Origin: Bacilli bacterium | GTDB taxonomy: Bacteria; Bacillota_I; Bacilli_A; RF39; UBA660 | Assembly (NCBI GenBank): GCA_017512495.1 | Contig: JAFWGF010000015.1 | Coordinates: 1-41,949, forward strand | Length of the DNA: 41,949 nt | Reading direction: 5' to 3' | In this document: positions 1 through 14,083 of the stretch, piece after piece | How the letters are laid out: the number at the start of each line of letters is the position of its first letter | Numbering within the stretch: the first letter of the stretch is position 1 | Translations under genes and position numbers: made by a program | The notes under the pieces: generated by a model | Databases searched by the model: none | What the model was told of the DNA's origin: nothing | What the model saw: only the letters and a program-made list of their open reading frames with translations

Positions 1-3000
1 GAATCTGGTTATTACAATTCAATAAGTAGTATAACAACAACAAGTGCTAGTGGAACATATTATGTAGATGCTACTGCTATTTATGGATCTGATTTTGATA
101 GAATAACTAATACTAACAATAAACTAGGGGTATATTATAATGCAACTACAACTTATGGTGGAACAATTAGAGCCGGAACTGATAAACCAAAATATATGAC
201 TACAATCATTAAAAGCGGAAAATTTGGTGAGGCTACTACAGAAGCTGCTTCAGGAGTTTATGTCGGTGGACTAACTGGTGGTAGTATTTATAATCCTGCT
301 GAATTAATTGTTGAAGGTGGAGATATCTTCAATATCAATGGTGGACCGTTAGTTGCTAGTAGTGTAAAAGCTAATAATATTATTTATATAAATATCAAAG
401 GTGGAAAAGCTGACTTTATCTTTGGTGGAGCGGCCCTTAGTACAACTTACGGGAATCGTATTATTAGTGTTACTGGTGGACAGATTGATTATTCTGTCTT
501 TGGTGGATCTAATGGTACTGCCGGTGGAAATGGTGATGGTACTCTAGATGGAGATTCATTTATCTATATTGGTGGAGATGCTGTTATTGGCGATAATACT
601 TCTGCTGCAGCAATTTGGGGTGCTGAGGCTGGTTCAGTATTTGGTGCTGGTAATGGTAATGCAAGCTATGGTACTATCGGATCAGTTAATAACGCAAAAG
701 TTATTATTGATGGAGGAGCCACAGTAAAGAAAAATGTCTATGGTGGTGGTAACTTTGGTGCAGTCGCAACAAGTACTAGTTCATCAAATTCCACAACTAA
801 TGTAAAAATAAATAATGGAAATATTAAAGGTTCAGTATATGGTGGTGGAAACAACAATGGTGCTGGAAGAAGTGCCACAACAGCTACTGTAAATATTGAA
901 ATGAATGGTGGTACAGTTGATAAATCAATATATGGTGGATCATGTGCCAAAGGAATCGTTTATGGTAATGTCAATGTAAACATTGATGGAGGAACGGTAA
1001 AAACCGACGTTTATGGTGGTGGTGAAGGTGGTTATAGTCAAGTAGGAAATGTAACTAACCAAGGTACTTATGTTTCTCAAAATGTCAATGTAACAATTGG
1101 TAATAATTCTAAAGCAACAACTCCGCGAATTGAAGGAAATGTTTATGGAGGATCTGCTTTTGGATCAGTAAATGGAACAGCTAATAATGGTTCTGCAACG
1201 GCTACTTATAAAACTAATGTTGTTGTTAACAAAGGAACAATTGTTAATAATGTCTTTGGTGGAGGTAAAGGTGGTACAGTTGATAATGTAACTTATACTC
1301 CGAAAGAGTATGGAGATATAACTGTTACTATTAATAATGGATCAATTGGAAAAGTCTTTGGTGGTAACGACTTAATGGGAAGTCCTGGTAGAAATGATAC
1401 CGTATATCTAAAAGGTGGAACTATTGGTAATGCCTTTGGTGGAGGTAATAATACAGGACAAACTACAACTAATATTTATTTACAAGGATCAACTATTACT
1501 AATAATTTATATGGTGGATCTAATGAAAGTGGAAGCATTACAACAGCAAATGTGACAGTAACATCAGGATCAGCTCAAAATATCTTTGGTGCCAATAACT
1601 TAGGAGGTTCTACTACGACAACAAATGTTGATGTTAGTGGCGGAACAGTTTCTCAAGGCGTTTATGGTGGAGGAAACCGAGTTGGAGCTGGGACAACAAA
1701 TGTTGATATTACTGGTGGTTCTATTACTTCAGTATATGGAGGATCTAATCAATTAGGAACAGTTAATCAAACTAATGTAACTATTAATACTAATCAATCT
1801 ATAACTGATGTTTATGGAGGAAACAATGCCGGTGGAACAACAGTTGCAAGTAATGTAGACATTATTTCAGGAACAATAAGTAATGTTTATGGTGGAGGAA
1901 ATCAAGCTACTACTGGATCTACTGATGTAGACATGAGTGGAGGAACAGTCGGTAATATGTTTGGTGGAGGTAACTTAGCTGATGTTACTGAAACAGATAT
2001 TAACATAACCGGTGGAAATCTTACTAATGTCTATGGTGGAGGAAATGCAGCTGACGTTACTGCTGATACTACTGTAAATATTCAAAATGCTACCGCAACA
2101 GGCAGTGTCTTTGGTGGAGGAAATCAAGGAGAAGTATTAGGAAATAGTGAGATTAAAGTTAAAAATACCGCAGTAAACGGAAGTGCTTATGCTGGAGGAA
2201 ATGAAGCAGATGTTAAAGGTAACACAACAATTACTATAGAAGGAACTAGTGTTATTGGAACAGCTACTACACAAGTACCAAATGGATCAGTGTTTGGTTC
2301 AGGTAACTCTGCAGGAACTGGTTCAACAAACTCAACAAAAACGGCAACTGTTAATATTGTTGGTGGAACAGTTTATGGAAATGTTTACGGTGGAGCCAAT
2401 ACTTCAGTTGTTAATGGAGTAGCTAATGTTAATATTGGAACATCAGCAGTTAATCAATCTGGATTAACTGAAGGAAACATTTGGATTAAAGGAACAGTTT
2501 ATGGTGGTGGAGAATCCAATGCCGCTGGTTCTGCTGAATATGACTATACAGCCATTTCAGTAACTCAAGGTATTAATATTACTATAAATGGTGAAGGCTA
2601 TGCTAATAATAATCATACCTTTAAGCTAAATGGATCAATCTTTGGTTCAGGAAATGCCTCATCTTCTGCCGGAGATTCAACAATTTATATTAAAAAATTA
2701 GGTACTTTAGCAGAACCTAATGATAACTTATCAATTCAAAGAACGACTTATTTAACTATCGATGAATCAGTAATTCATCTAACAGGTGCAAAAGATATAA
2801 CTAATAAATACGAAAACGATTTATACTCATTTAACATGATTGGAAAAGTGGTAAATGAACAACCAGTTGGTGGATTAGTACTTAAGAACAATTCAACAAT
2901 TTTACTAGATTATAATGCTAACCAATTAGTTTCATTTACTTCAGCAGTAGATGTTAATGGTAATCAACAAGTCGCAACTGTTGGAATTAATGATAGTACT

Positions 3001-5319
3001 CATACAGTTACTAAGAATGTTGATAATAGACTTTATATGTTAGCTGGTAAAAACTTAAATATCGCTACAGATCCTGATGCTACTGATTATGGAAAAGTAA
3101 CAGGAATGACATTCTTTGGAATTTATCGTAACTCTGCTGGAAATATTGATGAAACAGGTATGTATGGTACTAATTTCACATATGGTTCCAGTGCTTCTGG
3201 ATCTGAGGTAGTAATTGGAAGTTCATATGTTTTGGGATTACACCATGCTAATCATGATATAACTGTAGATGGATTCTATACTAATTATTTAGAAGATACA
3301 ACAATTAAAACTGCATATATTGAACCGACCCCACCTAATGTTGACTACTATAGATGGCAAATAGGTACAAATTCGATTGAATATGAATTTACTATGACAG
3401 CATCTAAGTACTTATCAATGGGTACTAATTCATTATCATTAATCGATTTCCCTAATGGAGATACAAAATTTATTGTTCTTGATTTTGATTCATCTGAATT
3501 AAATTCAGATTTAACAATGGTTGATGAAAATGAAGTACCTAAATTTGCTAGAGTTGGATCTGATGAATCTAAAAAGTTCGGTTTAAATATGAAGAGTGAA
3601 TCAACTGAATGGACATCTTTCAATAAAACTACATTCTTAAGTGAAGATAATGGAACGTATACCGGTGACGAAATATATCTAACAAGTAGTGATGCAGGAG
3701 CTCCTAATTTAGCTTTCTATTTATATCATGCTAAAAATATTGAAATGGAAGGTGACTTAGGAACAGTAATTATTACTCTGGAAGCTGAAACTCCTAAAAA
3801 TGGTTATGAAGTAGAAACCCATTATGTAACTATTAGAATAAATATTGAAGCTATTACATATTCTGATGGTAATCACTATGATGCTAGTATCACCTATGGA
3901 AAGAAATATTCAATGCCGGTTACTACTCCTGTTAATATTACTCCAAAATCACAATTTACAGAGTATTATTCATTAATAGTTAATGATGAATTAAAAGATA
4001 TTTATGGTAATAATCATGACTATTATCGTACTTTAGTATCTAGTTATGTTCTTCCAGTAGGTACAACAATTAGTTTTATTGATTTATCTGGATTGACTCC
4101 TAAATATTATTACTATGAAGTTAATAGTACTAATTATCAGCAAAAAGTAACTCAATTAGCTACGGATAACGAAGTGTCGTACCGGTTGTCAGACTTCCTA
4201 GCAATGGATACTACGACCGCCTCGAATAAGTATAATGACACAGCTAAAAACCTGGAATATTATGATAATGATATGGAAATGGCCTATGAAGAGTTCCTAT
4301 TCATATTTGATTTTAAAGGTGCCAACATTACTACAGCTCAATTAGATAATGAAATGTTATTTGAACTTCGAACTGATGATGATAGAACTGCAGTTACAGT
4401 ATTAGACAAACGTCAAGAAGACCGAGACATGGTATTTAATATCCATACAACAAGTAATATTGCGTTAAATCAAACAGTAAATACTGCTAATACTAATTTC
4501 TATTATGATGCAGTTAATACAACAGTTTATAGTACTCAGGTATCATATAGTACTGGTGGTACTAATCAGAAAGTAATCGATACTAACTATGAAGCAAGTA
4601 GTATGGGTGTTAATATTCAATTATTCGATAATCAAGGTACAAGTGTCAGTTCATCAATGTTATCAGGTACTAAAATTACAATAAATAATGTTGACTATTA
4701 TGTTGATAGTGATGGTGTATTTAGAATAAAACTTGCAGATAAAGTTTCTAACGTAATTAGAAATATGGATATTACTGTAGATTCTCTTTTACCAGCAGGT
4801 ACTTATACTATGAAGTTTTCAATTATTGCTTCTTCTGATGGATTACATGTATCAGACTTGAATGTACCGACATTTACGCAAACAATTCAAGTAGTAAATG
4901 CTGATAATGTTATAACTGTGTCACATGATGATAAAACAAAGATTTATTATGGTGATACAAAAGTCAATGAAGCTGGTAATAAGATTAATACATATCAGGT
5001 AAAATATAGTTCATCACTACAAAATGCAAACTTAAGATTAAGCATTTACAAGAGAAAAACTGATAGTTCAACTGAAACAGGCTATACAGAAATTGAAGCA
5101 TCTAAGCTTTTTGCAAATCAATTCACTGGAACAGGTTCAACAATATATCCATACGAAGTAGTATTACCATTTGGTGTATCTCCTTATAACATTCCTCTTA
5201 CAGTTAATGAAAATGCTAAGAGTGGAACATATAAGTTGGTATTTAAACTATGTGATGGTGATCAAATTGTTGATACTGACGATGCTTACTTAATCGTCAA
5301 AAAACCAGTTGTTTCGTAA
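1..5319 (+). CDS. Giant secreted glycine-rich repeat surface protein (5' end outside window)
   Basis: The frame is open from base 1, so the gene is cut by the window edge; 1772 residues are visible and the ATG at 196 is not a real start. The first half carries about 26 units, roughly 20-45 residues apart, each centred on a motif such as VYGGGN, VFGGGN or VYGGSN. Between motifs run short alternating hydrophobic/polar strands rich in Asn, Thr and Gly (for example VNIDGGTV), which suggests a right-handed beta-solenoid. The second half (from about base 2700) lacks the motif and looks like a chain of beta-rich, Ig-like domains. The C-terminus (...VKKPVVS) has no LPXTG motif, sorting tail or membrane helix, so the means of surface attachment is not visible. 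A signal peptide would lie upstream. A gap of 35 bases without a terminator leads to a signal-peptidase-like gene, so the two are probably co-transcribed. Likely role: adhesin or matrix scaffold (inference). Confidence 0.8.
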   Translation, partial: ESGYYNSISSITTTSASGTYYVDATAIYGSDFDRITNTNNKLGVYYNATTTYGGTIRAGTDKPKYMTTIIKSGKFGEATTEAASGVYVGGLTGGSIYNPAELIVEGGDIFNINGGPLVASSVKANNIIYINIKGGKADFIFGGAALSTTYGNRIISVTGGQIDYSVFGGSNGTAGGNGDGTLDGDSFIYIGGDAVIGDNTSAAAIWGAEAGSVFGAGNGNASYGTIGSVNNAKVIIDGGATVKKNVYGGGNFGAVATSTSSSNSTTNVKINNGNIKGSVYGGGNNNGAGRSATTATVNIEMNGGTVDKSIYGGSCAKGIVYGNVNVNIDGGTVKTDVYGGGEGGYSQVGNVTNQGTYVSQNVNVTIGNNSKATTPRIEGNVYGGSAFGSVNGTANNGSATATYKTNVVVNKGTIVNNVFGGGKGGTVDNVTYTPKEYGDITVTINNGSIGKVFGGNDLMGSPGRNDTVYLKGGTIGNAFGGGNNTGQTTTNIYLQGSTITNNLYGGSNESGSITTANVTVTSGSAQNIFGANNLGGSTTTTNVDVSGGTVSQGVYGGGNRVGAGTTNVDITGGSITSVYGGSNQLGTVNQTNVTINTNQSITDVYGGNNAGGTTVASNVDIISGTISNVYGGGNQATTGSTDVDMSGGTVGNMFGGGNLADVTETDINITGGNLTNVYGGGNAADVTADTTVNIQNATATGSVFGGGNQGEVLGNSEIKVKNTAVNGSAYAGGNEADVKGNTTITIEGTSVIGTATTQVPNGSVFGSGNSAGTGSTNSTKTATVNIVGGTVYGNVYGGANTSVVNGVANVNIGTSAVNQSGLTEGNIWIKGTVYGGGESNAAGSAEYDYTAISVTQGINITINGEGYANNNHTFKLNGSIFGSGNASSSAGDSTIYIKKLGTLAEPNDNLSIQRTTYLTIDESVIHLTGAKDITNKYENDLYSFNMIGKVVNEQPVGGLVLKNNSTILLDYNANQLVSFTSAVDVNGNQQVATVGINDSTHTVTKNVDNRLYMLAGKNLNIATDPDATDYGKVTGMTFFGIYRNSAGNIDETGMYGTNFTYGSSASGSEVVIGSSYVLGLHHANHDITVDGFYTNYLEDTTIKTAYIEPTPPNVDYYRWQIGTNSIEYEFTMTASKYLSMGTNSLSLIDFPNGDTKFIVLDFDSSELNSDLTMVDENEVPKFARVGSDESKKFGLNMKSESTEWTSFNKTTFLSEDNGTYTGDEIYLTSSDAGAPNLAFYLYHAKNIEMEGDLGTVIITLEAETPKNGYEVETHYVTIRINIEAITYSDGNHYDASITYGKKYSMPVTTPVNITPKSQFTEYYSLIVNDELKDIYGNNHDYYRTLVSSYVLPVGTTISFIDLSGLTPKYYYYEVNSTNYQQKVTQLATDNEVSYRLSDFLAMDTTTASNKYNDTAKNLEYYDNDMEMAYEEFLFIFDFKGANITTAQLDNEMLFELRTDDDRTAVTVLDKRQEDRDMVFNIHTTSNIALNQTVNTANTNFYYDAVNTTVYSTQVSYSTGGTNQKVIDTNYEASSMGVNIQLFDNQGTSVSSSMLSGTKITINNVDYYVDSDGVFRIKLADKVSNVIRNMDITVDSLLPAGTYTMKFSIIASSDGLHVSDLNVPTFTQTIQVVNADNVITVSHDDKTKIYYGDTKVNEAGNKINTYQVKYSSSLQNANLRLSIYKRKTDSSTETGYTEIEASKLFANQFTGTGSTIYPYEVVLPFGVSPYNIPLTVNENAKSGTYKLVFKLCDGDQIVDTDDAYLIVKKPVVS
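257..2670 (+). repeat. Coding repeat region: Y/F-G-G-G/S-N units
   Basis: DNA encoding about 26 degenerate copies of the (V/I)(Y/F)GG(G/S)N turn motif inside the giant surface protein. Recurring words are tatggtggagg and tttggtggagg. Unit spacing varies and is not an exact DNA tandem repeat, which suggests old, diverged duplications under protein-level selection rather than recent slippage. Confidence 0.75.
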
Positions 5320-5354
5320 AAAAATATATGTTAGAATTAGGATGGTGATAAGAA

Positions 5355-5969
5355 ATGAGAAGAGTTGGTTCCTGGATATTAGGAATAATAGAAGCTTTAA
5401 TTATCGTATATGTAATTTTCTTAACAGGCTGTTTATTATTTATTAATGACTTCGGTCATACACAATTTGGTAATTATACATTAATAGAAGTAGATAAAGG
5501 ACAAGCTACATTACTTGATAATGTAGAAGAAGGAGATCTTTTAATAATAAAAGATGGAAATGATATTGTTAAAGGAAATGTTATCTATTATTACAGTGTT
5601 ATTAATGATAAATACTTTATAAAAAGAGCTGCAGTAACAGAAATAAAAGATGATGGATTTGGGGCTATATATTCATTAGATATTGCTAACAGAGGAGAAA
5701 CTGCAACTGTAAATGATAAAAAAGTAATAGGTAATTATGCATCAGTTCATCGTAAATTGGGTAAGGTACTAACTGTACTAGAATCAAAAGTAGGTTTCTT
5801 ATTCTTAGTACTATTACCAATGATGTGTATCTTTATCTACCACGTATATTCATTTATAGTAATTCTAAAATTTGAAAAAGTTGATCCTGAAGAGCAAGAA
5901 GAAGATGATATAGAAGTACTTGATGAACCAAAATCATCAAAGAAGAAAACAAAAAAAAGAAAGAATTAG
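5355..5969 (+). CDS. Signal peptidase I-like membrane protein lacking the catalytic serine
   Basis: 204 residues with ribosome site GGATGGTGAT ahead of the ATG. The layout matches small Firmicute S26/SipW-type peptidases: helix at about 8-30, extracytoplasmic domain with EEGDLLIIK at 58-66 (the 'GDLV' strand), FIKRAA at 88-93, VIGNY at 124-128, a second helix at about 145-170, and an acidic-then-lysine-rich cytoplasmic tail. It aligns well with the gene at 11951 (VIGKVVGVVP; ITHRI). Where that protein has the nucleophile (SESMIP), this one reads KGQATLLD, with no Ser between residues 7 and 80. The Lys90-Arg91 pair fits the general-base position of bacterial type I peptidases. Most likely a catalytically dead homologue acting as chaperone, adaptor or regulator for the giant protein upstream. 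A Thr nucleophile (Thr52) cannot be excluded. Confidence 0.7.
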   Translation: MRRVGSWILGIIEALIIVYVIFLTGCLLFINDFGHTQFGNYTLIEVDKGQATLLDNVEEGDLLIIKDGNDIVKGNVIYYYSVINDKYFIKRAAVTEIKDDGFGAIYSLDIANRGETATVNDKKVIGNYASVHRKLGKVLTVLESKVGFLFLVLLPMMCIFIYHVYSFIVILKFEKVDPEEQEEDDIEVLDEPKSSKKKTKKRKN

Positions 5970-5989
5970 GAAACTAATTCTTTTTTTTG
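5960..5989 (+). terminator. Intrinsic terminator after the signal-peptidase-like gene
   Basis: AGAATTAG (5962-5969), loop GAAA, CTAATTCT (5974-5981), then a T-run to 5988. The stop codon TAG lies in the left arm. It separates the giant-protein unit from the next promoter. Confidence 0.9.
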
Positions 5990-6011
5990 TGTTAAAAATA
6001 TCTTATATTTG

Positions 6012-6040
6012 TTTAATTTAAATAATAATTATGGTATAAT
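6012..6040 (+). promoter_or_regulatory. Extended -10 promoter for the TasA-like trio
   Basis: TGGTATAAT at 6032-6040 is a perfect extended -10. A weak TTTAAT sits 17 bases upstream (6012-6017). Transcription would start near 6047, just ahead of the AGGGTGA ribosome site. Confidence 0.7.
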
Positions 6041-6063
6041 TTAATCAAACTAGGGTGAAGTTT

Positions 6064-6654
6064 ATGAATGATAGAAAAAGATCAGTTTTAGTCGCAATAT
6101 TATTAATATTTTGCTTTATATATTTAGTAGTTAGAGCTAGTCATGCCGCTTATGAATCATCTATTTCTGGTCAAGCAGAGAATGATCTAGCTAATTGGTC
6201 TATTAAAATTAATAATCAAGAAATAAATCAAGGGGTAACAAATCCAATAGCTTTGAATTATACAGTTACTGATTTAACAAATGTTAGATCAGGTAAAGTA
6301 GCTCCCGGAGCAAATCTTAGTTATCCAATTACAATAGATGCTTCTGGTAGTGAAGTAGCTATTAAACTTACTTTTTCAATCGAAGATAAAAGTGTTGATC
6401 CAGATAAATTATTAACTTTAACTAGTGTTAATTCAAGTGATTTAACTGTTGTTAGAGTTGGAGTGTCTAGCTATAGTGCAATTATTCCTAAGGCAAGTTT
6501 AAGTGGTACAAAAACAGTTACTCTAAACTTAACATGGGTAGATGATGGTTCATCAGTAGAATATACCGATGTAATGACTGATGATGATTTTGCAGAAATA
6601 GAAGTTAGTGCCATTCAATATGCTGGAGAGACTTTAACTCCATATAGTGGATAG
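6064..6654 (+). CDS. SipW-substrate/TasA-like secreted protein
   Basis: 196 residues. The ATG at 6064 is chosen because AGGGTGA (6052-6058) is correctly spaced from it; the in-frame GTG at 6055 lies inside that site. The N-terminus is basic (NDRKR), then a hydrophobic helix, then RASHAAYESS, a leader with an Ala-X-Ala type cleavage point. The mature part opens with NWSIKINNQEI and continues as a beta-sandwich-like Thr/Ser/Val-rich domain, with LTWVDDG near the end. The same landmarks (KWNIKINNEI, YNWLDDG) occur in the minus-strand gene 13331-13927, so the two are paralogues. The family resembles TasA/camelysin-like proteins matured by SipW-type peptidases. No cell-wall anchor. First gene of a three-gene unit. 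A fibre or matrix subunit role is inferred. Confidence 0.75.
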   Translation: MNDRKRSVLVAILLIFCFIYLVVRASHAAYESSISGQAENDLANWSIKINNQEINQGVTNPIALNYTVTDLTNVRSGKVAPGANLSYPITIDASGSEVAIKLTFSIEDKSVDPDKLLTLTSVNSSDLTVVRVGVSSYSAIIPKASLSGTKTVTLNLTWVDDGSSVEYTDVMTDDDFAEIEVSAIQYAGETLTPYSG

Positions 6655-6665
6655 TAGGTGATTTT

Positions 6666-7265
6666 ATGGAAAGAAATAAAATAATCGAATCTTTAGGTGT
6701 AGAAAAAACAAAAAGAATATTAAAAGCTACTCTAATATTTGTTTTCATTCTATTACTTAGTTTCTTCTTTGCTCAATCATATGCAAAGTATGAATCAACA
6801 GCTAAATTAAGTACGAATATAGATAAAGCAGTTTATTTATTAAAAGATGAAAAGCTTACTTTTAATATTGATCCTAATGCTATAGTACCTAGTGATACAC
6901 CATATACATATACTTTTACAGTATCCAATCATAATGGTCAAATTAATGGAGATATGAATTTAAGATATTATATTCAATTGAAGACAACTACTAATTTACC
7001 AATAACAGTTAAATTAGTAAGAAATCAACAATATAGTAGTAGTGCTACTAATATTGCTCAAGGATTTCAATTGAAACAAGATGAGGATAATGCATGGTAT
7101 AAATTATATAATCCAAGTCCTACATATGAGTTTCAATACAATTCACCAAGAACTGATACTTATGTCTTAGCAGTTGAATATCCAGCAATATATAAAACTT
7201 ATTTAAATTATGCTGGTGTACCAGAAAATATAGAAGTTGCGATTTATTCTGAACAAAAAGTTTAA
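6666..7265 (+). CDS. SipW-substrate-like secreted protein
   Basis: 199 residues, 11 bases after the previous gene, ribosome site TAGGTGAT. A cytoplasmic stretch of about 22 residues (ERNKIIESLGVEKTKR) is followed by a helix ending FFFAQSYAKYEST, i.e. the S/A-Y-A-K-Y leader shared by several proteins here, with cleavage expected after AYA/SYA. The mature domain is beta-rich, with YTYTFTVSNHNG and LRYYIQLKTTT strands, the kind of 'donor' sandwich seen in TasA-like proteins. No cysteine, no anchor. Exact role unknown; co-transcription with the genes on both sides suggests subunits of one extracellular structure. Confidence 0.7.
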   Translation: MERNKIIESLGVEKTKRILKATLIFVFILLLSFFFAQSYAKYESTAKLSTNIDKAVYLLKDEKLTFNIDPNAIVPSDTPYTYTFTVSNHNGQINGDMNLRYYIQLKTTTNLPITVKLVRNQQYSSSATNIAQGFQLKQDEDNAWYKLYNPSPTYEFQYNSPRTDTYVLAVEYPAIYKTYLNYAGVPENIEVAIYSEQKV

Positions 7266-7275
7266 GGAGAATTAT

Positions 7276-8214
7276 ATGAAGTATATTAGACAACATAAAA
7301 AACTTAGTATTATTACCCTAATAGTTTTAGTAGGGCTTTTAATAGTGGGTCTTGCTTATGCTAAATACTTCTTAAACATCATAAATAATTATATTTTAGA
7401 AACCAAGAAATTTTATTTTAATAGTTCAGTCTTAACAGTAAATAATAAGCATTATCAAATAAATAACTGGGATGGAGTTAGTTCTTATCCTATAACGGTA
7501 GATTTGAATAATAGAAAGAACGCTGAAAGATATACAACTAGTGATATTACTTATAGTATACGTGTTGAATGTGATAATACTAAATTAATTTGTACAGCAA
7601 GTAAAAGTTCAGGAATTATTTATCAAAATACTCATACTGATAGTTATCAAATAACTGTTACTCCTAGAACTAACTTTTCAGCTGGTGAATCAGTAAGTGT
7701 TACTACTTATGTGGAATCATCATCACCTTATGTTAAACAGTTATCAGCTACGTATGAACTTAATGTAGTAAATAGTAGATTTACATATAATATTGATGAT
7801 ACAGCTGGAGACTTGATTTTAAACTTAAACTTAACTAATTCAATGGCTTATTATGAAGTAGAAGAAGCTTTTGGTAATTATAGTGCTGGTGATGAAATAA
7901 CAAAAGATGTTTATGAAACTTTAACTGATAGTCAAAAAGATAAGTGTTTCTCAGCTAAGGTAACATTAACATTTGATCCAAACGTAGTTATCTTAGATTC
8001 TACTGATGAATCAATAAAAAACAGACTATCGAGTCCATATCAAACCACGACAATTAGTGGTAATAGTTATGTGTCGAAATATGCATTTAAAGTTGATGCC
8101 GCGACTAATAAGAAAATAATTTTCTATAAAACTAATAGATATGCTAATTACACTTATCCAATAAAAAATCCAAGTTCAATAGTACAGGTGGATGTAGTAT
8201 TAGCTCGTGAATAA
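7276..8214 (+). CDS. SipW-substrate-like secreted/anchored protein
   Basis: 312 residues from the ATG at 7276, which has a strong AAGGAGAA site (7264-7271); an in-frame TTG at 7237 would overlap the previous gene and has no such site. Leader: RQHKKLS, hydrophobic helix, then GLAYAKYFLN. The mature part is larger than its neighbours and seems to hold two beta domains, the first with SITYSIRVECD-like strands and the second from about residue 165 (RFTYNIDDTAG). Two cysteines fall close together (VECDNTKLICTA), which could form a disulfide. No wall-sorting signal. Third gene of the unit; a new promoter follows. Confidence 0.7.
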   Translation: MKYIRQHKKLSIITLIVLVGLLIVGLAYAKYFLNIINNYILETKKFYFNSSVLTVNNKHYQINNWDGVSSYPITVDLNNRKNAERYTTSDITYSIRVECDNTKLICTASKSSGIIYQNTHTDSYQITVTPRTNFSAGESVSVTTYVESSSPYVKQLSATYELNVVNSRFTYNIDDTAGDLILNLNLTNSMAYYEVEEAFGNYSAGDEITKDVYETLTDSQKDKCFSAKVTLTFDPNVVILDSTDESIKNRLSSPYQTTTISGNSYVSKYAFKVDAATNKKIIFYKTNRYANYTYPIKNPSSIVQVDVVLARE

Positions 8215-8240
8215 AAATACTTTTATTAGATAGTTATGTA

Positions 8241-8249
8241 TGCTATAAT
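8241..8249 (+). promoter_or_regulatory. Extended -10 promoter for the AAA+ operon
   Basis: TGCTATAAT at 8241-8249, a perfect TGnTATAAT. The predicted start of transcription (about 8256) is only about 9 bases ahead of the GTG at 8265, so the first message is nearly leaderless if GTG is used. Confidence 0.7.
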
Positions 8250-8264
8250 TTAAGAGAATAGATA

Positions 8265-9290
8265 GTGGGTGATAATATTAATAATATAGTTGCTTCATAC
8301 AAAAAATTTAAGACAGGTTATCTAAATAAATTAGGAAAAATTTTATATAATTCAAAGCAACCAGAATCTGTTGAAATACTTGATAGATATATTAATAATT
8401 ATTTCAATGCTAAATTTTATGATATTTATGAAACTGTAGAAGATGGCACTCCATTTTCTTTTGAAGTTTTACAAGAAGAATATAATGGTTTAGAAATAGA
8501 ATTATTAGAAACATATGAAGGACTTACTAAGCAAGTTAAAGAATTAAAAAAAGTAGCTTACTTCGTATGTAATTTGGATGGAATATATAATTCAGAAGAA
8601 GATTTACAGAAACTGATTGAAGAAGAAGTAGTAAAAGATAAATATATTAAAATAATTTTAGGTAATAAAAAAGAGCAGTTTATTAAAGAATTTATTACAA
8701 TGTCTAATAAAGAGAATAAAATATTAGAAACTAATTTAGATGAATTCTTTGAAATAACTACTCATAAACAAGAATCTTTAGCACTTATTGATATGACTTA
8801 TAATATTAAAGTACTAAATGGTTATCGTAAAACTTTAGTTAATCAAGTTTATAAAGATCAAAAATTATATTTAAAGAAAGCAATTAATATTTTAGATAAA
8901 ATTGCCTTTCAAATTTTAAAAGATAAATGCTTAGGATTAGATGATCAATTAGAATATATTGTATTACTAGAAAGTGGTGCGATAGTAGATGGGGATTTTG
9001 CTAAAGAAATAAAAGATATTATTAATGATAAATTAGTTAATAAAAAGCTAGGAATAGCTTTACCAGATGAGATTTTATTTACTAGAGAAAAGATCTTTAA
9101 AAACGATGTTAAATTATCATGTTTTAGAGATATGACTTATGTAAATGAAATAGAAAAGAAATTTGCTTCAGTATTAGCTTTACCAATTGAATACTTTATA
9201 GTTACTAATTATAAGACCAAAAGAGAAGCTGATATAATTGCTTATGCAGAAACTGAAAGCAGAATAGTAATATATGAGGAGGAAGAATAA
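8265..9290 (+). CDS. Unknown helical protein, coupled to the AAA+ ATPase
   Basis: I do not recognise this 341-residue protein. No signal peptide or membrane helix is visible. It is acidic and lysine-rich, mostly alpha-helical, with possible coiled-coil stretches (for example ELLETYEGLTKQVKELKK and LYLKKAINILDKIAFQ); the last ~60 residues look more mixed alpha/beta (PIEYFIVTNYKTKREAD...). The start is uncertain: GTG at 8265 would be almost leaderless, while GTGGGTGAT (8265-8273) looks like the GGTGAT ribosome site used all over this window, spaced for an ATT codon at 8277. Its stop overlaps the ATPase start (TAATG), which implies translational coupling and a shared complex. Possible adaptor or substrate-recognition subunit (inference). 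Confidence 0.7.
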   Translation: MGDNINNIVASYKKFKTGYLNKLGKILYNSKQPESVEILDRYINNYFNAKFYDIYETVEDGTPFSFEVLQEEYNGLEIELLETYEGLTKQVKELKKVAYFVCNLDGIYNSEEDLQKLIEEEVVKDKYIKIILGNKKEQFIKEFITMSNKENKILETNLDEFFEITTHKQESLALIDMTYNIKVLNGYRKTLVNQVYKDQKLYLKKAINILDKIAFQILKDKCLGLDDQLEYIVLLESGAIVDGDFAKEIKDIINDKLVNKKLGIALPDEILFTREKIFKNDVKLSCFRDMTYVNEIEKKFASVLALPIEYFIVTNYKTKREADIIAYAETESRIVIYEEEE

Positions 9291-10831
9291 TGAATACATT
9301 TATAAGATTTCTATATGAATTTATGTCTGTATTCTTTGAGGGGTTCATTGGAATGTTCAAGGGCGTTGTCCTAGGATTCATTCAAATGTTTAATATCAGA
9401 GAATATGGTTATGTAATATCTATGTATAGAAAAGATTTTCATATGGGTGAATGGATTCTAGTAGTAATAGCTATTATTGTATTAGTAATAGTGTTAGCCT
9501 TAATTGTATTACTAATTTGGTTCATTGTTAGAAAATATATTAGATTTAGAAAAACTCTAGTAGAACAAGAATCTATGCTAGAAGAGATTGGAAACTTACA
9601 TAAAGAAGTAGCTAAGTTATCCAATGAAAAAGATAAATTATTAGCCATGAAGGTTTCTCAATTAGGATTAAAACCTGATGAAGCAGAAGTGCTTAGTGAA
9701 GAAGAAACTGGAGAAGAGACAGAGAAGAAAGAAGATGTTGTTGACTTATCTAATATCAGATTTAGTAAGCTACATGAAATTGATGTTGAATTTGCTAACT
9801 ACAAACCAGTTAATTATGGTAATACATTTACTTTAGAGGAATTAGTTGAACATTTTAGAAACTTTGCTGCATCTAAGTTAAGACTTTACTATACAACTGA
9901 AATGATTAGATTATTTATATCAGGTTTAAGCTGTACTAGACTTGTTATCCTACAAGGTATTTCTGGTACTGGTAAAACTTCCTTAGCTTATGCTTGGGGT
10001 AAATTTATTAAAAACGATGCAATCATTGCTTCAGTACAACCGTCTTGGAGAGATAGAACCGAGTTATTTGGTTACTTCAACGAGTTCACTAAGAAGTTCA
10101 ATGAGACAGACGTTTTAAAAGGTTTATACAAAGCTAACTATACTGATGATGTATATGTAACTGTACTGGACGAAATGAATATCGCCCGTGTCGAGTATTA
10201 TTTCGCAGAAATGTTATCTATTCTAGAAATGCCTAGTCGTGATGAATGGATAATTGAGTTAGTTCCTAGTACATGGGATAGTGATCCAAAATTATTACAT
10301 AATGGTAAATTACAAATACCTGGAAACATGTGGTATATCGGTACAATCAATAACGATGACTCTACATTTGCTGTTACTGATAAAGTGTACGACCGTGCTA
10401 TGCCGATAGATATCAATGATAAAGGTCAAGTATTTGAACCAGAAGATAGAGATGCTCTAGATATTAATAGTTCTTATCTAGAAGGATTATTTGAAGCTGC
10501 TAAGGCTAAAAACAAATTGTCTGAGGAAATGGAAAAGAAAATAGAAGATATGGACAATTATGTTATTAAACATTTCCGTATAGCTTTCGGTAACCGTATT
10601 GTTAAACAAATGCGTGATTTCGTAGCTACTTTCATAGAATGTGGTGGTACTGAAGTTGATGCAGTAGACTACTTCATTGCTAGAAAGATCTTTAGAAAAT
10701 TTGAGCAGTTAAACATTGCTTATATTAGAGATGAAATTGATGACTTCGTTAAATGGTTAGACCAAGCATTTGGTAAAGAGCACTTTAATGAATGTAAAGA
10801 CTACTTATTAAGACTTAAGAAGATGGTATAA
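9290..10831 (+). CDS. Membrane-anchored McrB-like AAA+ ATPase
   Basis: 513 residues. Residues 3-34 are an amphipathic/hydrophobic segment; a strong membrane helix lies at about 54-80 (ILVVIAIIVLVIVLALIVLL), then a short coiled coil (90-120) and an acidic linker (130-152). The AAA+ module follows: Walker A GISGTGKT (223-230), the McrB-like SWRDRTELFGYFNEF (252-266), Walker B VTVLDEMN (290-297), a sensor-1 stretch GTINNDDST (351-359) where McrB has its MNTADRS motif, Arg369 (VYDRAMPI), and a helical lid with FGNRIVKQM. This places it in the McrB/AAA_5 group. Classic McrB is soluble and carries a DNA-binding N-domain; here that domain is replaced by a membrane anchor. All catalytic motifs look intact. 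It sits between the unknown coupled gene and a DUF2357 gene. Likely a membrane-bound remodelling motor, substrate unknown. Confidence 0.85.
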   Translation: MNTFIRFLYEFMSVFFEGFIGMFKGVVLGFIQMFNIREYGYVISMYRKDFHMGEWILVVIAIIVLVIVLALIVLLIWFIVRKYIRFRKTLVEQESMLEEIGNLHKEVAKLSNEKDKLLAMKVSQLGLKPDEAEVLSEEETGEETEKKEDVVDLSNIRFSKLHEIDVEFANYKPVNYGNTFTLEELVEHFRNFAASKLRLYYTTEMIRLFISGLSCTRLVILQGISGTGKTSLAYAWGKFIKNDAIIASVQPSWRDRTELFGYFNEFTKKFNETDVLKGLYKANYTDDVYVTVLDEMNIARVEYYFAEMLSILEMPSRDEWIIELVPSTWDSDPKLLHNGKLQIPGNMWYIGTINNDDSTFAVTDKVYDRAMPIDINDKGQVFEPEDRDALDINSSYLEGLFEAAKAKNKLSEEMEKKIEDMDNYVIKHFRIAFGNRIVKQMRDFVATFIECGGTEVDAVDYFIARKIFRKFEQLNIAYIRDEIDDFVKWLDQAFGKEHFNECKDYLLRLKKMV

Positions 10832-10832
10832 T
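10824..10832 (+). promoter_or_regulatory. Possible internal extended -10 promoter
   Basis: TGGTATAAT overlaps the stop codon of the AAA+ gene and lies 28 bases ahead of the next ATG. It has no good -35. It could give extra expression of the DUF2357 and signal peptidase genes, or be chance in AT-rich DNA. Confidence 0.3.
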
Positions 10833-10860
10833 ATAAATTGATTAAAAATGGGGTGATGCT

Positions 10861-11949
10861 ATGGATGAAGAGAAGAACTTTCTCGAGAGTATTAATTCAA
10901 CTTTAAACATTGATCGAGACTATGTTAATCAAAAGTTTGATTATGAATGGTTAGATAGAATCGAAGAAACTATTCCTTATCTTGATAATATCGTTAGAAA
11001 CCCTAAACGATTCATTATCAATGAAGAAGAAGTAGTTAAAGTAGAATTAGCTCGTAAAACAACAGTTGAATCAATTATTCACCTTACACAGCACACTAAT
11101 TTAATTCAAGATTATGATGAAAAAACTAGTGATGTAAAACCATCAAAAGTCTTAAATATCAATCGTGATGAATCACTTGATACATATGAAAATAGATTTA
11201 TTTTCACACTATTAGGAAACTTAGATTTATTCTTTACTCAAAGAGTAGAACAATCTGGAGATAAATCACGTTTTAGTGATAAGAAAATTATTAAATATGT
11301 AGGTAATGCTAAAGTAGGTACTGAAACAATAAATGTTGATATCGATGTAAACTCATTTGATAAAAACGAAGAAGAAGTAAGAAATGCTAATGGGGAAAGT
11401 TTCTCTGAAAGAGTTGCTAAAGTTAAAATTCAATTAGATGGTTTTAAAGCTTCTGAATTGTTTAGAACTTTAACTAAATTACATGTTTCACCAGTACGTT
11501 CACCGATTAGAAAAACTAACGTAATTTTGAAGAATCCTAATTTCCAAAAAGCAGAGGAATTATGGAATTATATTCAATTATTTAAATCAAAAGATAAAAA
11601 AGAACAGTCTAAGATGAATTACTATGATGATGGAGTAATTAAACAAGACTATAATTCAGTATTCTTAATGTTATATAATTATAATAAGTTAATCAGTACT
11701 GAAAAACCTAATACTAAGTTTGAAAGAAAAATAGGGGAAATGAGTGAAGCTTTTATTAACAATATACTTGATAGTAGTGAATTAGTTAATGAAGATGATC
11801 TAAAAGAAATATTTATTAAAAAGATAGATAAAATCAAAGAAGAGAATATAAGAAAATATGCAAGTATATTCGAAATATTTGATAATAGATTATCTAGAGA
11901 AGCAGAAAAGTATTCAGACTTATTAATGTATATGGAAAAAGAGGATTAA
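10861..11949 (+). CDS. DUF2357-type (McrC-like) protein without a nuclease domain
   Basis: 362 residues, ribosome site GGGGTGAT. The segment RDESLDTYENRFI (102-114) is the hallmark of DUF2357 proteins, followed by the LHVSPVRSPIRKTN region and a conserved AEELWNYIQLF helix. In known systems DUF2357 proteins pair with McrB-like ATPases and usually continue into a PD-(D/E)XK nuclease. Here the chain ends about 130 residues after that region with helical, charged sequence, and I see no PD...ExK motif. No membrane helix. Directly downstream of the membrane-anchored ATPase, so it is probably its activator or partner (as McrC is for McrB), but not a nuclease. The family call rests on motif recognition without a database search. 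Confidence 0.65.
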   Translation: MDEEKNFLESINSTLNIDRDYVNQKFDYEWLDRIEETIPYLDNIVRNPKRFIINEEEVVKVELARKTTVESIIHLTQHTNLIQDYDEKTSDVKPSKVLNINRDESLDTYENRFIFTLLGNLDLFFTQRVEQSGDKSRFSDKKIIKYVGNAKVGTETINVDIDVNSFDKNEEEVRNANGESFSERVAKVKIQLDGFKASELFRTLTKLHVSPVRSPIRKTNVILKNPNFQKAEELWNYIQLFKSKDKKEQSKMNYYDDGVIKQDYNSVFLMLYNYNKLISTEKPNTKFERKIGEMSEAFINNILDSSELVNEDDLKEIFIKKIDKIKEENIRKYASIFEIFDNRLSREAEKYSDLLMYMEKED

Positions 11950-11950
11950 G

Positions 11951-12511
11951 ATGAAAAACAAATTTAAAGTATTTACAACTATTAAAACAGTATTTGATGT
12001 AGTAATTATTGCAGTAATTGCAGTATATATATCAGCTATATTAATCCAACGTGTATCTGGTAATAAAAGTGTATTGGGTTATCGTATGTTTAATGTAGCT
12101 TCTGAAAGTATGATTCCTGTATATAAAATTAATGATATTATAGTTGTTAAAGACTGTAATCCAACTGCTTTACAAATAGGTGATGATATTGCTTATATTG
12201 GTAAAGATAATAGCTTAAATGGAAAGATTATTACCCATAGAATTATTGATATAGATAATAGTAAAGGGGAATTAACTACTAAAGGAGTTAACAATGATTT
12301 AGTGGATCCATCTATTACTACTAAACAAGTTATTGGAAAAGTAGTAGGTGTAGTACCATTTATATCATTTATTAATAAGTTAGTTATGACGCAAGCAGGA
12401 TTTTACTTTTTAATATTTGTACCAGTAGTTTTAATTGCTTGTATGGAAATAGCTGAAACAATAATAGAAGGAAAAATAGAGAAGAAGGAATTAGTAGAAA
12501 TAAAAGATTAG
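11951..12511 (+). CDS. sipW: SipW/ER-type signal peptidase I
   Basis: 186 residues, starting one base after the previous stop. Helix at about 14-33, then the nucleophile motif ASESMIP (Ser53), the strand NDIIVV, ITHRI with His96 at the general-base place (His instead of Lys marks the ER/archaeal/SipW type), TTKGVNNDLVDP (108-120) with the conserved Asp residues, VIGKVVGVVPF, and a C-terminal helix near 147-167. The complete Ser/His/Asp set argues for an active enzyme on the outer face of the membrane. SipW of Bacillus matures the biofilm proteins TasA and TapA; the six full-length leader-bearing proteins in this window are its natural candidate substrates. Being in one operon with the AAA+ ATPase and DUF2357 proteins ties those to secretion. 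The name sipW is by type, not proven orthology. Confidence 0.88.
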   Translation: MKNKFKVFTTIKTVFDVVIIAVIAVYISAILIQRVSGNKSVLGYRMFNVASESMIPVYKINDIIVVKDCNPTALQIGDDIAYIGKDNSLNGKIITHRIIDIDNSKGELTTKGVNNDLVDPSITTKQVIGKVVGVVPFISFINKLVMTQAGFYFLIFVPVVLIACMEIAETIIEGKIEKKELVEIKD

Positions 12512-12526
12512 GAATGAGTTGATAAA

Positions 12527-13288
12527 TTGAAGAAAAAGATTAATCGACAATTTACTGAGGCAGAAAAAGAATACATTAGAAAGAATAAAAAAATTCTTCT
12601 TATTCGTAGTGTCTTAATGTTAGGCTTTTTACTAGTGTTTAATGTCTTTGCCTGGTTTATATATGTTTCTAAAGTTAATACTGAGATGGATATTAAAGCA
12701 CTTAGTTGGGATGTTGTGTTCTCAGAAGGTGGTAATGCCGTTAAGGATGTTGTAATTGCTTTAGATGTATATCCAGGAATGGAAGAGTATACACATACTA
12801 TTTCTGTAACTAATGCTAGTGAAACAGCAGCTAATTTATTCTTTGATACTAAGAGTGTTACTCTATTTGGTTCGGAGATGTTAACAGATACTACTATGAC
12901 TGAAGCTCAAAAAGAACAATTTTTAATGACTGTATTGCCTCTAACTATTCAATATCAATTCGGAAATACAGTAATGCAACAATCTACACAATCATCATTT
13001 ACAGTTAAAATAAACTGGGAATATGAAAATAATAATTATTATAAAGTACCAGCTATATTTGGATATAGTGCTGATTTAACATATTATACTAAGAGTGGTA
13101 GTACTTATACTGTGACTGAGGTAACTGGTTCAACATATAACGCATTAAAGAATTCACTTTATTTAACTAAAGATGATATTGATAGCTATATAGGAGAACA
13201 ATGTGGATATTATCAAAGAGCTAATGGTAAAAGTTGTTTAGTACTAAAAGGAGAACTAGTAGCAGAACAATCTCAAGCAGGAAGTTAA
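12527..13288 (+). CDS. Membrane-anchored TasA-like protein
   Basis: 253 residues from a TTG start with GAGTTGAT upstream, 15 bases after the signal peptidase. A basic cytoplasmic tail (KKKINRQFTEAEKEYIRKNKK) precedes a helix at about 27-48, then VNTEMDIKALSWDVVFSEGG, which is like the start of mature TasA-type domains. Further on, PGMEEYTHTISVTNASETAANLFF-type strands suggest a beta-sandwich with donor/acceptor edges. The helix ends in WFIYVSKV without a clear Ala-X-Ala, so it may stay anchored, perhaps as the base of a fibre. Two cysteines near the end (EQCGYYQRANGKSC) could pair. Last gene of the operon, with a terminator directly after it. Confidence 0.7.
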   Translation: MKKKINRQFTEAEKEYIRKNKKILLIRSVLMLGFLLVFNVFAWFIYVSKVNTEMDIKALSWDVVFSEGGNAVKDVVIALDVYPGMEEYTHTISVTNASETAANLFFDTKSVTLFGSEMLTDTTMTEAQKEQFLMTVLPLTIQYQFGNTVMQQSTQSSFTVKINWEYENNNYYKVPAIFGYSADLTYYTKSGSTYTVTEVTGSTYNALKNSLYLTKDDIDSYIGEQCGYYQRANGKSCLVLKGELVAEQSQAGS

Positions 13289-13302
13289 CCTGCTTTTTTT
13301 AT
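13275..13302 (+). terminator. Intrinsic terminator of the AAA+/signal peptidase operon
   Basis: AAGCAGG (13275-13281), 7-base loop, CCTGCTT (13289-13295), T-run to 13300. The left arm lies in the last codons of the upstream gene. Confidence 0.9.
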
Positions 13303-13303
13303 G

Positions 13304-13332
13304 CAAAAAAAAGAAAGGTATTACCTTTCTTT
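13304..13332 (-). terminator. Intrinsic terminator of the minus-strand TasA-like gene
   Basis: An inverted repeat AAAGAAAGGTA/TTACCTTTCTTT (13310-13332) with an A-run to its left, which reads as a T-run on the minus strand. It stands back to back with the plus-strand terminator, so the convergent genes are isolated from each other. Confidence 0.85.
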
Positions 13333-13927
13333 AACTTCTTGTTTGTGTTAGATGGAAAGTTACTAGAATATCAGCATTTGAAGTACCACTAACAGCTGCG
13401 GTAGTATCATTTTGATTATTCATCGCATCAGTACCATCATCTAACCAGTTATAATAAATTCTAATTGTTGTAGATGCAGTGTTATGTTGAATAGTACCAG
13501 TTATTGTATCGCTAGTAACAGTTGTTGTAGTGTTAAAATCATTAACGGAGTAAGCATAAATGTTTAAATCTTCTATAGTATACGAATTATATTTAGAAAT
13601 GCCAATTTCATAAGTGAATGATACATCTGCATTAGTCGCATCGATATTAACATCAAAGTAACCAGTACTTCCTGGAGCTAAGACATTACTATTAACATAA
13701 TTATTAGCTACTATTGTAGGAGTAATATGATTAGTAAGAGTAGTTTTATTCGCAATAATTTCATTATTTATTTTAATATTCCATTTGGCGATAGTGTTGT
13801 CTACTTGAACAGTAGCAAACTTACGATACTTCGCATATGCTTCTTGGAATAAGAAGATAAATACTAAACAGAATAATAAGAAAACTAGTATACGTTTTTT
13901 ATTAGTATCTTCAGTACGCGTACTCAT
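13331..13927 (-). CDS. SipW-substrate/TasA-like secreted protein
   Basis: 198 residues on the minus strand, ribosome site AGAGGTGGGAG ahead of the ATG. Leader: basic start (TEDTNKKR), hydrophobic helix, then FQEAYAKYRK with cleavage expected after AYA. The mature domain begins KWNIKINNEIIANK and carries YNWLDDG near its end; both match the gene at 6064-6654 (NWSIKINNQEI, LTWVDDG), so it is a paralogue kept in opposite orientation at the edge of the island. Thr/Asn-rich, beta-type composition, no cysteine, no anchor. Its own promoter and terminator suggest separate control from the operon it faces. Confidence 0.75.
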   Translation of the reverse strand: MSTRTEDTNKKRILVFLLFCLVFIFLFQEAYAKYRKFATVQVDNTIAKWNIKINNEIIANKTTLTNHITPTIVANNYVNSNVLAPGSTGYFDVNIDATNADVSFTYEIGISKYNSYTIEDLNIYAYSVNDFNTTTTVTSDTITGTIQHNTASTTIRIYYNWLDDGTDAMNNQNDTTAAVSGTSNADILVTFHLTQTRS

Positions 13928-13941
13928 ACACTCCCACCTCT

Positions 13942-13947
13942 ATTATA
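13942..13947 (-). promoter_or_regulatory. -10 element of the minus-strand TasA-like gene
   Basis: TATAAT on the minus strand, 14 bases ahead of the start codon. A convincing -35 is not seen, and the implied leader is short. Confidence 0.45.
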
Positions 13948-13997
13948 ATTTTATCATAGATAGAATAAAAACCAATAAAAAACTCTAAAAAATATTT

Positions 13998-14023
13998 AAA
14001 AACAGTAAAATTTTACTGTTTTT
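13998..14023. promoter_or_regulatory. Perfect 26-base palindrome between divergent genes
   Basis: Thirteen bases (13998-14010) are followed directly by their exact reverse complement (14011-14023); the core is ACAGTAAAATTTTACTGT. It lies between the promoters of the minus-strand TasA-like gene and uvrA, where no transcript is expected to end, so an operator for a dimeric regulator is more likely than a terminator. It does not match the Bacillus LexA box (GAAC-N4-GTTC). Confidence 0.5.
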
Positions 14024-14057
14024 GTATAAAATAAGTAATGATAAAAGATTAAATATT

Positions 14058-14066
14058 TGATATAAT
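14058..14066 (+). promoter_or_regulatory. Extended -10 promoter for uvrA
   Basis: TGATATAAT at 14058-14066, a perfect extended -10, 17 bases ahead of the start codon, with the GGGAGGTG ribosome site in between. Confidence 0.7.
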
Positions 14067-14083
14067 AAGCGGGAGGTGTTAGT

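Follow-up and report, generated by a model that had tools for sequence, protein, structure and literature searches.

The eLife 2024 census of McrBC systems (Bell et al., 94800; PMC11090510) gives one paragraph of its main text to a clade named CoCoPALM, in which an FtsB-like transmembrane (TM) and coiled-coil region is fused to a McrB-like NTPase and which is associated with signal peptidases. The paragraph defers the clade to a later paper, which we did not find in the literature searched. In type IV pili, the non-catalytic EAL protein FimX promotes the ATPase PilB (PMC5595344). No relevant paper was found that joins McrB with SipW or TasA. Here we describe a locus at positions 8265 to 13288 of a 41,949-nucleotide window (contig JAFWGF010000015.1, positions 1 to 41,949) from a Bacilli bacterium. 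It encodes a McrB-like NTPase domain with an FtsB-like TM helix and coiled coil, a DUF2357 protein in the same operon and a signal peptidase, and is very probably a CoCoPALM/fiber-export module. An original prediction, made from the sequence of the window, had proposed that this motor was co-opted for work at the cell envelope.

The conserved gene unit, the missing nuclease, the SipW neighbors and the protein fusions described below suggest that the motor probably powers or gates fiber export rather than cutting DNA. In related gut bacteria, too, genes for exported proteins resembling surface fibers almost always surround the motor genes. As an explanation of the whole locus, we give even weight to the reading that a McrBC-derived motor, out of DNA restriction, now works in exporting and assembling TasA-like surface fibers that depend on SipW.

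A conserved gene unit

Of the 145 genomes in the family, 41 have a homolog of the DUF2357 protein. An AAA+ profile matches 91 of 392 genomes of the phylum; some of these have an AAA+ protein of related yet distinct architecture, and a few of the matches are marginal. Among named genomes, 520 encoding stretches were confirmed, the best 80 of which were kept; these come from metagenome-assembled genomes labelled Bacilli, Clostridia, Oscillospiraceae, Erysipelotrichaceae and Mollicutes.

The gene order is found in about 100 loci and so is not unique to one genome. Among the 107 distinct loci counted, the DUF2357 gene directly follows the AAA+ gene in 101/105, a gene for an EAL-fold protein lies directly upstream of the AAA+ gene in 89/104, and SipW follows DUF2357 in 84/100; because the loci share ancestry, the counts cannot be treated as independent. 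Median gaps are 3, 15 and 1 bases, the last between DUF2357 and SipW. Of the named loci, 52 have five flanking genes on either side, and every one of them has SipW as well as a SipW-type signal-anchored protein at most five genes away. Chance would place a SipW within five genes in less than 5% of loci, based on our estimate of about five SipW copies per genome where the AAA+/DUF2357 pair occurs.

One locus (L231) has an AAA-DUF2357-AAA tandem without SipW, next to two TM proteins of more than 1000 amino acids. Similar close AAA+ pairs occur in other genomes of the phylum-wide AAA+ profile search.

The AAA+ and DUF2357 proteins

McrB was the sole match in a PDB sequence search with the AAA+ protein (6hz4, E. 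coli McrB, E = 5.5e-6, residues 205-417), and the NCBIfam McrB model NF008457 also matches it (E = 4.8e-6). The protein has the Walker A motif GISGTGKT, the Walker B motif LDEMN, and NNDD, which is invariant in 21 aligned sequences and can be read as the NxD form of the GTPase motif that marks CoCoPALM, with a D after it, but also as NxxD. Pfam shows no DNA-binding domain at the N-terminus. In its place are a TM helix at about residues 56-80, conserved in relatives, and a coiled-coil-like stretch; residues 58-128 weakly match FtsL/DivIC. The assignment to the McrB group with an N-terminal membrane helix in the original prediction is thus borne out.

The DUF2357 domain (Pfam PF09823, E = 9.8e-11) covers residues 16-135 of its protein. 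An AlphaFold2 model built from 48 sequences has a mean predicted local distance difference test (pLDDT) score of 79 and a predicted template modeling (pTM) score of 0.54; it is all-helical past residue 259 and has no alpha/beta nuclease core. The model found no match at E<=1e-3 in a fold search of the PDB, and a PDB profile search with the DUF2357 alignment returned designed proteins only, the best at E = 0.0023 over the helical part. The absence of a PD-(D/E)XK nuclease, read earlier from the sequence, therefore agrees with profile search, model and fold search.

Genomic neighborhood and defense

Among 88 flanking proteins sampled, nine PADLOC families were matched at E<=1e-10, each by one to three proteins, and the Pfam families are mostly housekeeping. 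The relatives thus do not sit in defense islands with nuclease subunits, and no restriction neighborhood was seen among the loci surveyed. Beyond the operon, the window contains uvrA, lgt, whiA and genes of glycolysis. Restriction of modified DNA by an ordinary McrBC system would account for the sequence similarity to McrB and DUF2357, but with a membrane helix where the DNA-binding domain would be, no restriction neighbors and no nuclease domain found, we regard it as extremely improbable; the absent nuclease already contradicts it.

The PADLOC candidate phage-defense model PDC-M26A matches the AAA+ protein at 126 bits; we found no paper that names PDC-M26. This match, the patchy presence of the system (41/145 genomes) and the defensive role of related McrB branches (PMC11090510) are what one would expect of a phage-defense system sensing what happens at the cell surface. 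We consider such a system very unlikely, given that the unit contains no effector or nuclease, that the flanking genes are mostly housekeeping and that the full-length membrane form of the AAA+ protein is absent from plasmid and phage collections. The AAA+ domain alone finds distant relatives in those collections. PDC-M26A may therefore mislabel these loci, a defense tool flagging what appears to be a surface-assembly machine.

Without defense islands or a nuclease, and with the gene order kept in about 100 loci, the idea of envelope work is strongly supported by context. The specific activity named in the original prediction (extraction, folding or assembly) stays conjectural, and the link to signal peptidases had already been published.

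An EAL-fold subunit

The protein encoded at 8265-9290 is, by its place in the unit, a predicted subunit of a trio with the AAA+ and DUF2357 proteins. A confident AlphaFold2 model (pLDDT 88.4, pTM 0.85) predicts a degenerate EAL-like fold. In a Foldseek search of the PDB, the top five matches are all EAL domains (E = 9.5e-5 to 6.3e-4), the best being 6hq5 (E = 9.5e-5, probability 1.00); BifA (TMt 0.50) and FimX are also matched. The protein had been described as an unknown helical protein, which holds for its N-terminal domain and fails for the C-terminal domain, where the alpha/beta EAL fold lies. Pfam EAL matches two relatives of the window protein below the cut-off (E = 0.011 and 0.037), and a PDB profile search with the protein alignment gave chance matches only. 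The catalytic and cyclic di-GMP (c-di-GMP) residues of EAL domains (EAL, DDFG, K, E) have no invariant column among 40 relatives. This suggests the fold of a c-di-GMP enzyme turned into a structural part. A degenerate EAL protein of another locus (L232), considered as a sequence bridge, was rejected: it is a genuine EAL protein (8.2e-14), yet does not match the window family.

Nineteen proteins are fusions with an N-terminal SipW that keeps Ser and His and a C-terminal EAL-fold protein. From SipW topology, the EAL-fold protein would sit in the cytoplasm.

The window's genome has no EAL domain and one GGDEF match, in a 685-amino-acid protein, which from its size we take to be GdpP. EAL proteins are encoded at the locus in five named loci without the EAL-fold protein (L141, L146, L147, L153 and L155), and none of the loci of the named set with the EAL-fold protein has an EAL gene. 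This complementarity is confounded with lineage. In relatives within the class (L214-L220), two GGDEF-EAL genes lie side by side ahead of the export genes, some 2-7 kb into the locus (measured from its end where it is reversed); the EAL motifs for catalysis are intact in the first gene and degenerate in the second. L213-L221 were chosen for a nearby EAL, so their number is not a frequency.

Active and inactive SipW peptidases

The SipW encoded next to DUF2357 retains the catalytic Ser and His in all 94 cases, as does the SipW moiety of the EAL-fold fusions in 18/18 counted. In the window this peptidase scores above the TIGR02228 cut-off and has both residues, in agreement with the earlier call of an intact enzyme. 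SipW homologs further upstream are different: 76 of 111 are without the Ser/His pair, mostly with both residues gone, and the window's copy at 5355-5969 is predicted to be inactive. A pair of one active and one fully dead SipW is found in 48 of 70 distinct loci with sufficient context, and in several additional loci the alignment has a SipW copy missing His alone. The literature search found no paper on an inactive SipW or on an active/dead SipW pair. In the 1.37 Mb genome G000 there are ten SipW-type matches, so that SipW export has expanded far beyond the studied operon.

The fusion of the EAL-fold protein to an active SipW, the 1-base median gap between DUF2357 and SipW, and the GGDEF-EAL genes in related loci would all suit the main rival explanation, in which the ring does not drive assembly but gates SipW, its NTP state and the EAL-fold protein timing cutting and fiber release. 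A hexameric AAA+ protein seems more than a gate needs, and trio loci without SipW nearby (L063, L065) are left unexplained; we think the gate fairly unlikely.

Exported proteins

The exported proteins have in common the signal-anchor motif A-x-A-x-[YFW] and a beta-rich sequence. Where SipW is missing next to the trio, a TM protein is encoded directly after DUF2357 (L063, 10604-11905; L065, 1771-3036, minus strand; L070, 3697-4968). It combines about 95 residues of cytoplasmic tail with D-x-D-x-D-G repeats and, at the C-terminus, a domain that is homologous to exported proteins of other loci. We considered a hidden peptidase in the SipW-less loci and rejected it, as the downstream protein of 421-441 amino acids is the TM protein with repeats and a TasA-like C-terminus. 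The type of cargo may be more constant than SipW itself.

Membrane-anchored AAA+ rings often extract membrane proteins. That general pattern, and a cargo that is membrane-anchored until it is cut, would fit membrane quality control, in which signal-anchored precursors that have failed or are in excess are pulled out of the membrane by the ring, to be degraded or to enter export a second time. The conserved unit shows no protease domain or protease gene, and we judge this role quite unlikely.

Proposed mechanism

In the mechanism that we infer from the observed genes, conserved unit, fusions and SipW pair, the AAA+ protein would form a hexamer on the cytoplasmic face of the membrane, held by its N-terminal helix. 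The DUF2357 protein would bind the ring and stimulate NTP hydrolysis, as McrC does for McrB, and the EAL-fold protein would tie the ring to SipW. TasA-like precursors with a signal anchor would be engaged by the ring at their cytoplasmic tails and fed to SipW and into the growing fiber, and the dead SipW may bind precursors uncut, as a holder or chaperone. In lineages with real EAL or GGDEF-EAL proteins, c-di-GMP control has perhaps been added.

We put the motor-driven assembly step at a little under an even chance. More tentatively, the locus may represent a new class of fiber-assembly machine, in which a McrBC-derived AAA+ ring, together with its DUF2357 activator and with a degenerate EAL scaffold that links it to SipW, powers the polymerization of TasA-like subunits, with a pseudo-SipW as precursor chaperone and c-di-GMP control in some lineages.

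Several points weigh against a motor for SipW-dependent fibers. The interactions and activity of the trio are predictions. SipW is present in 138/145 family genomes and the DUF2357 protein in 41/145; most of these genomes therefore have SipW without the motor, so that SipW secretion as such does not need it. A few loci (L063, L065, L132 and L136) have no SipW nearby. The kinship of the trio subunit to EAL is significant by fold alone: hhalign to EAL, over the region of the Pfam matches, is not significant (score 19.5, E = 0.058), and a GGDEF control comes so close (score 16.0, E = 0.1) that this sequence test is no evidence by itself. Finally, the exported proteins match no TasA family in Pfam, NCBIfam or PDB searches. 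The original prediction had called the anchored protein TasA-like; the SipW-type signal anchor and beta-rich sequence stand, and the family match does not. Only the SipW-type anchor is shared with TasA, so the term is descriptive.

The unit appears to combine a motor, an activator, an EAL-fold scaffold, an active and a dead peptidase, and their cargo. It thereby joins two questions in one testable operon: what the nuclease-less, membrane-anchored branch of McrBC does, and how SipW-dependent fibers are energized or timed.

Operon layout

The five open reading frames of the locus, the TAATG overlap of the EAL-fold and AAA+ genes (9288-9292), the short spacing (gaps of 29, 1 and 15 bases after the AAA+, DUF2357 and active SipW genes) and the final terminator are all as first described. 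The five-gene operon is part of a longer unit, in which those genes are preceded by a giant repeat protein, an inactivated SipW and three exported proteins (Table 1). In 5000-14200, terminator-like sites are confined to 13275-13332, where the operon and the convergent gene end, and no plus-strand terminator-like hairpin was found in 5000-13275 ahead of the one that ends the operon. The transcription unit thus probably takes in genes from before 5355 and ends at the predicted terminator. The contig begins within the giant Gly/Asn-rich repeat protein, which has about 1970-2020 amino acids at the same position in relatives; the part in the window has no Pfam match and no sortase motif. The original prediction had missed the EAL fold, the fusions to SipW and the inactive SipW copy.

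Table 1. Features of the operon and its convergent neighbor in the window
Feature	Position	Strand	Basis or remarks
Giant repeat protein, C-terminal part	1..5319	+	Frame open from base 1; GG-x-[YF]-GGGN-like repeat units
SipW paralog, predicted inactive	5355..5969	+	NCBIfam SipW E = 2e-4, TIGR02228 E = 1.3e-4; Gln/Ala replace Ser/His in alignment
Exported protein, SipW-type signal anchor	6055..6654	+	Hydrophobic N-terminus, then HAAYES
Exported protein, SipW-type signal anchor (SYAKYES)	6666..7265	+	
Exported protein, SipW-type signal anchor (LAYAKYF)	7237..8214	+	About 310 amino acids in relatives; conserved just upstream of the EAL-fold gene
EAL-fold protein, predicted (the earlier unknown helical protein)	8265..9290	+	AlphaFold2 and Foldseek
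McrB-like AAA+ NTPase, N-terminal TM helix and coiled coil	9290..10831	+	513 amino acids; NCBIfam, PDB sequence match
DUF2357 (McrC N-terminal domain) protein, no nuclease, helical C-terminus	10861..11949	+	362 amino acids; Pfam, model
SipW-type signal peptidase, predicted active (Ser53/His96)	11951..12511	+	TIGR02228, 79 bits
Exported protein, SipW-type signal anchor (NVFAWF)	12527..13288	+	
Terminator-like hairpin followed by T run, operon end	13275..13295	+	
Further exported protein, SipW-type anchor (EAYAKYR), convergent gene	13331..13927	-	Kept at this place in relatives

Comparison with known systems

The locus resembles CoCoPALM in its McrB-like NTPase with an FtsB-like TM and coiled-coil region, its DUF2357 partner and its signal peptidase neighbor. 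The link of a TM-anchored McrB branch to signal peptidases had already been published under that name (PMC11090510). The single main-text paragraph on the clade mentions neither TasA-like cargo nor an EAL-fold subunit, and it says nothing of SipW fusions or of an inactive SipW. Among the papers searched, we found none describing an EAL-fold subunit of the trio, a SipW fusion to it, an active/dead SipW pair, or the GGDEF-EAL and EAL genes of loci without the EAL-fold protein.

With E. coli McrBC, a Type IV restriction system, the locus shares an AAA+ domain and a DUF2357 activator domain encoded by adjacent genes. Unlike McrBC, it has no PD-(D/E)XK nuclease or DNA-binding domain and has a membrane anchor and export neighbors. 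The tapA-sipW-tasA operon of Bacillus is similar in having a dedicated endoplasmic reticulum-type signal peptidase with signal-anchored, beta-rich exported proteins; the Bacillus operon has no motor, whereas the locus has a second, dead SipW and cargo with no TasA-family match.

FimX and PilB are the closest functional parallel of the EAL-fold and AAA+ proteins. The ATPase family, pilin and peptidase differ, and c-di-GMP binding is not expected in the window's genome, but in both systems a non-catalytic EAL protein would accompany a hexameric cytoplasmic NTPase that assembles membrane-anchored fiber subunits (PMC5595344).

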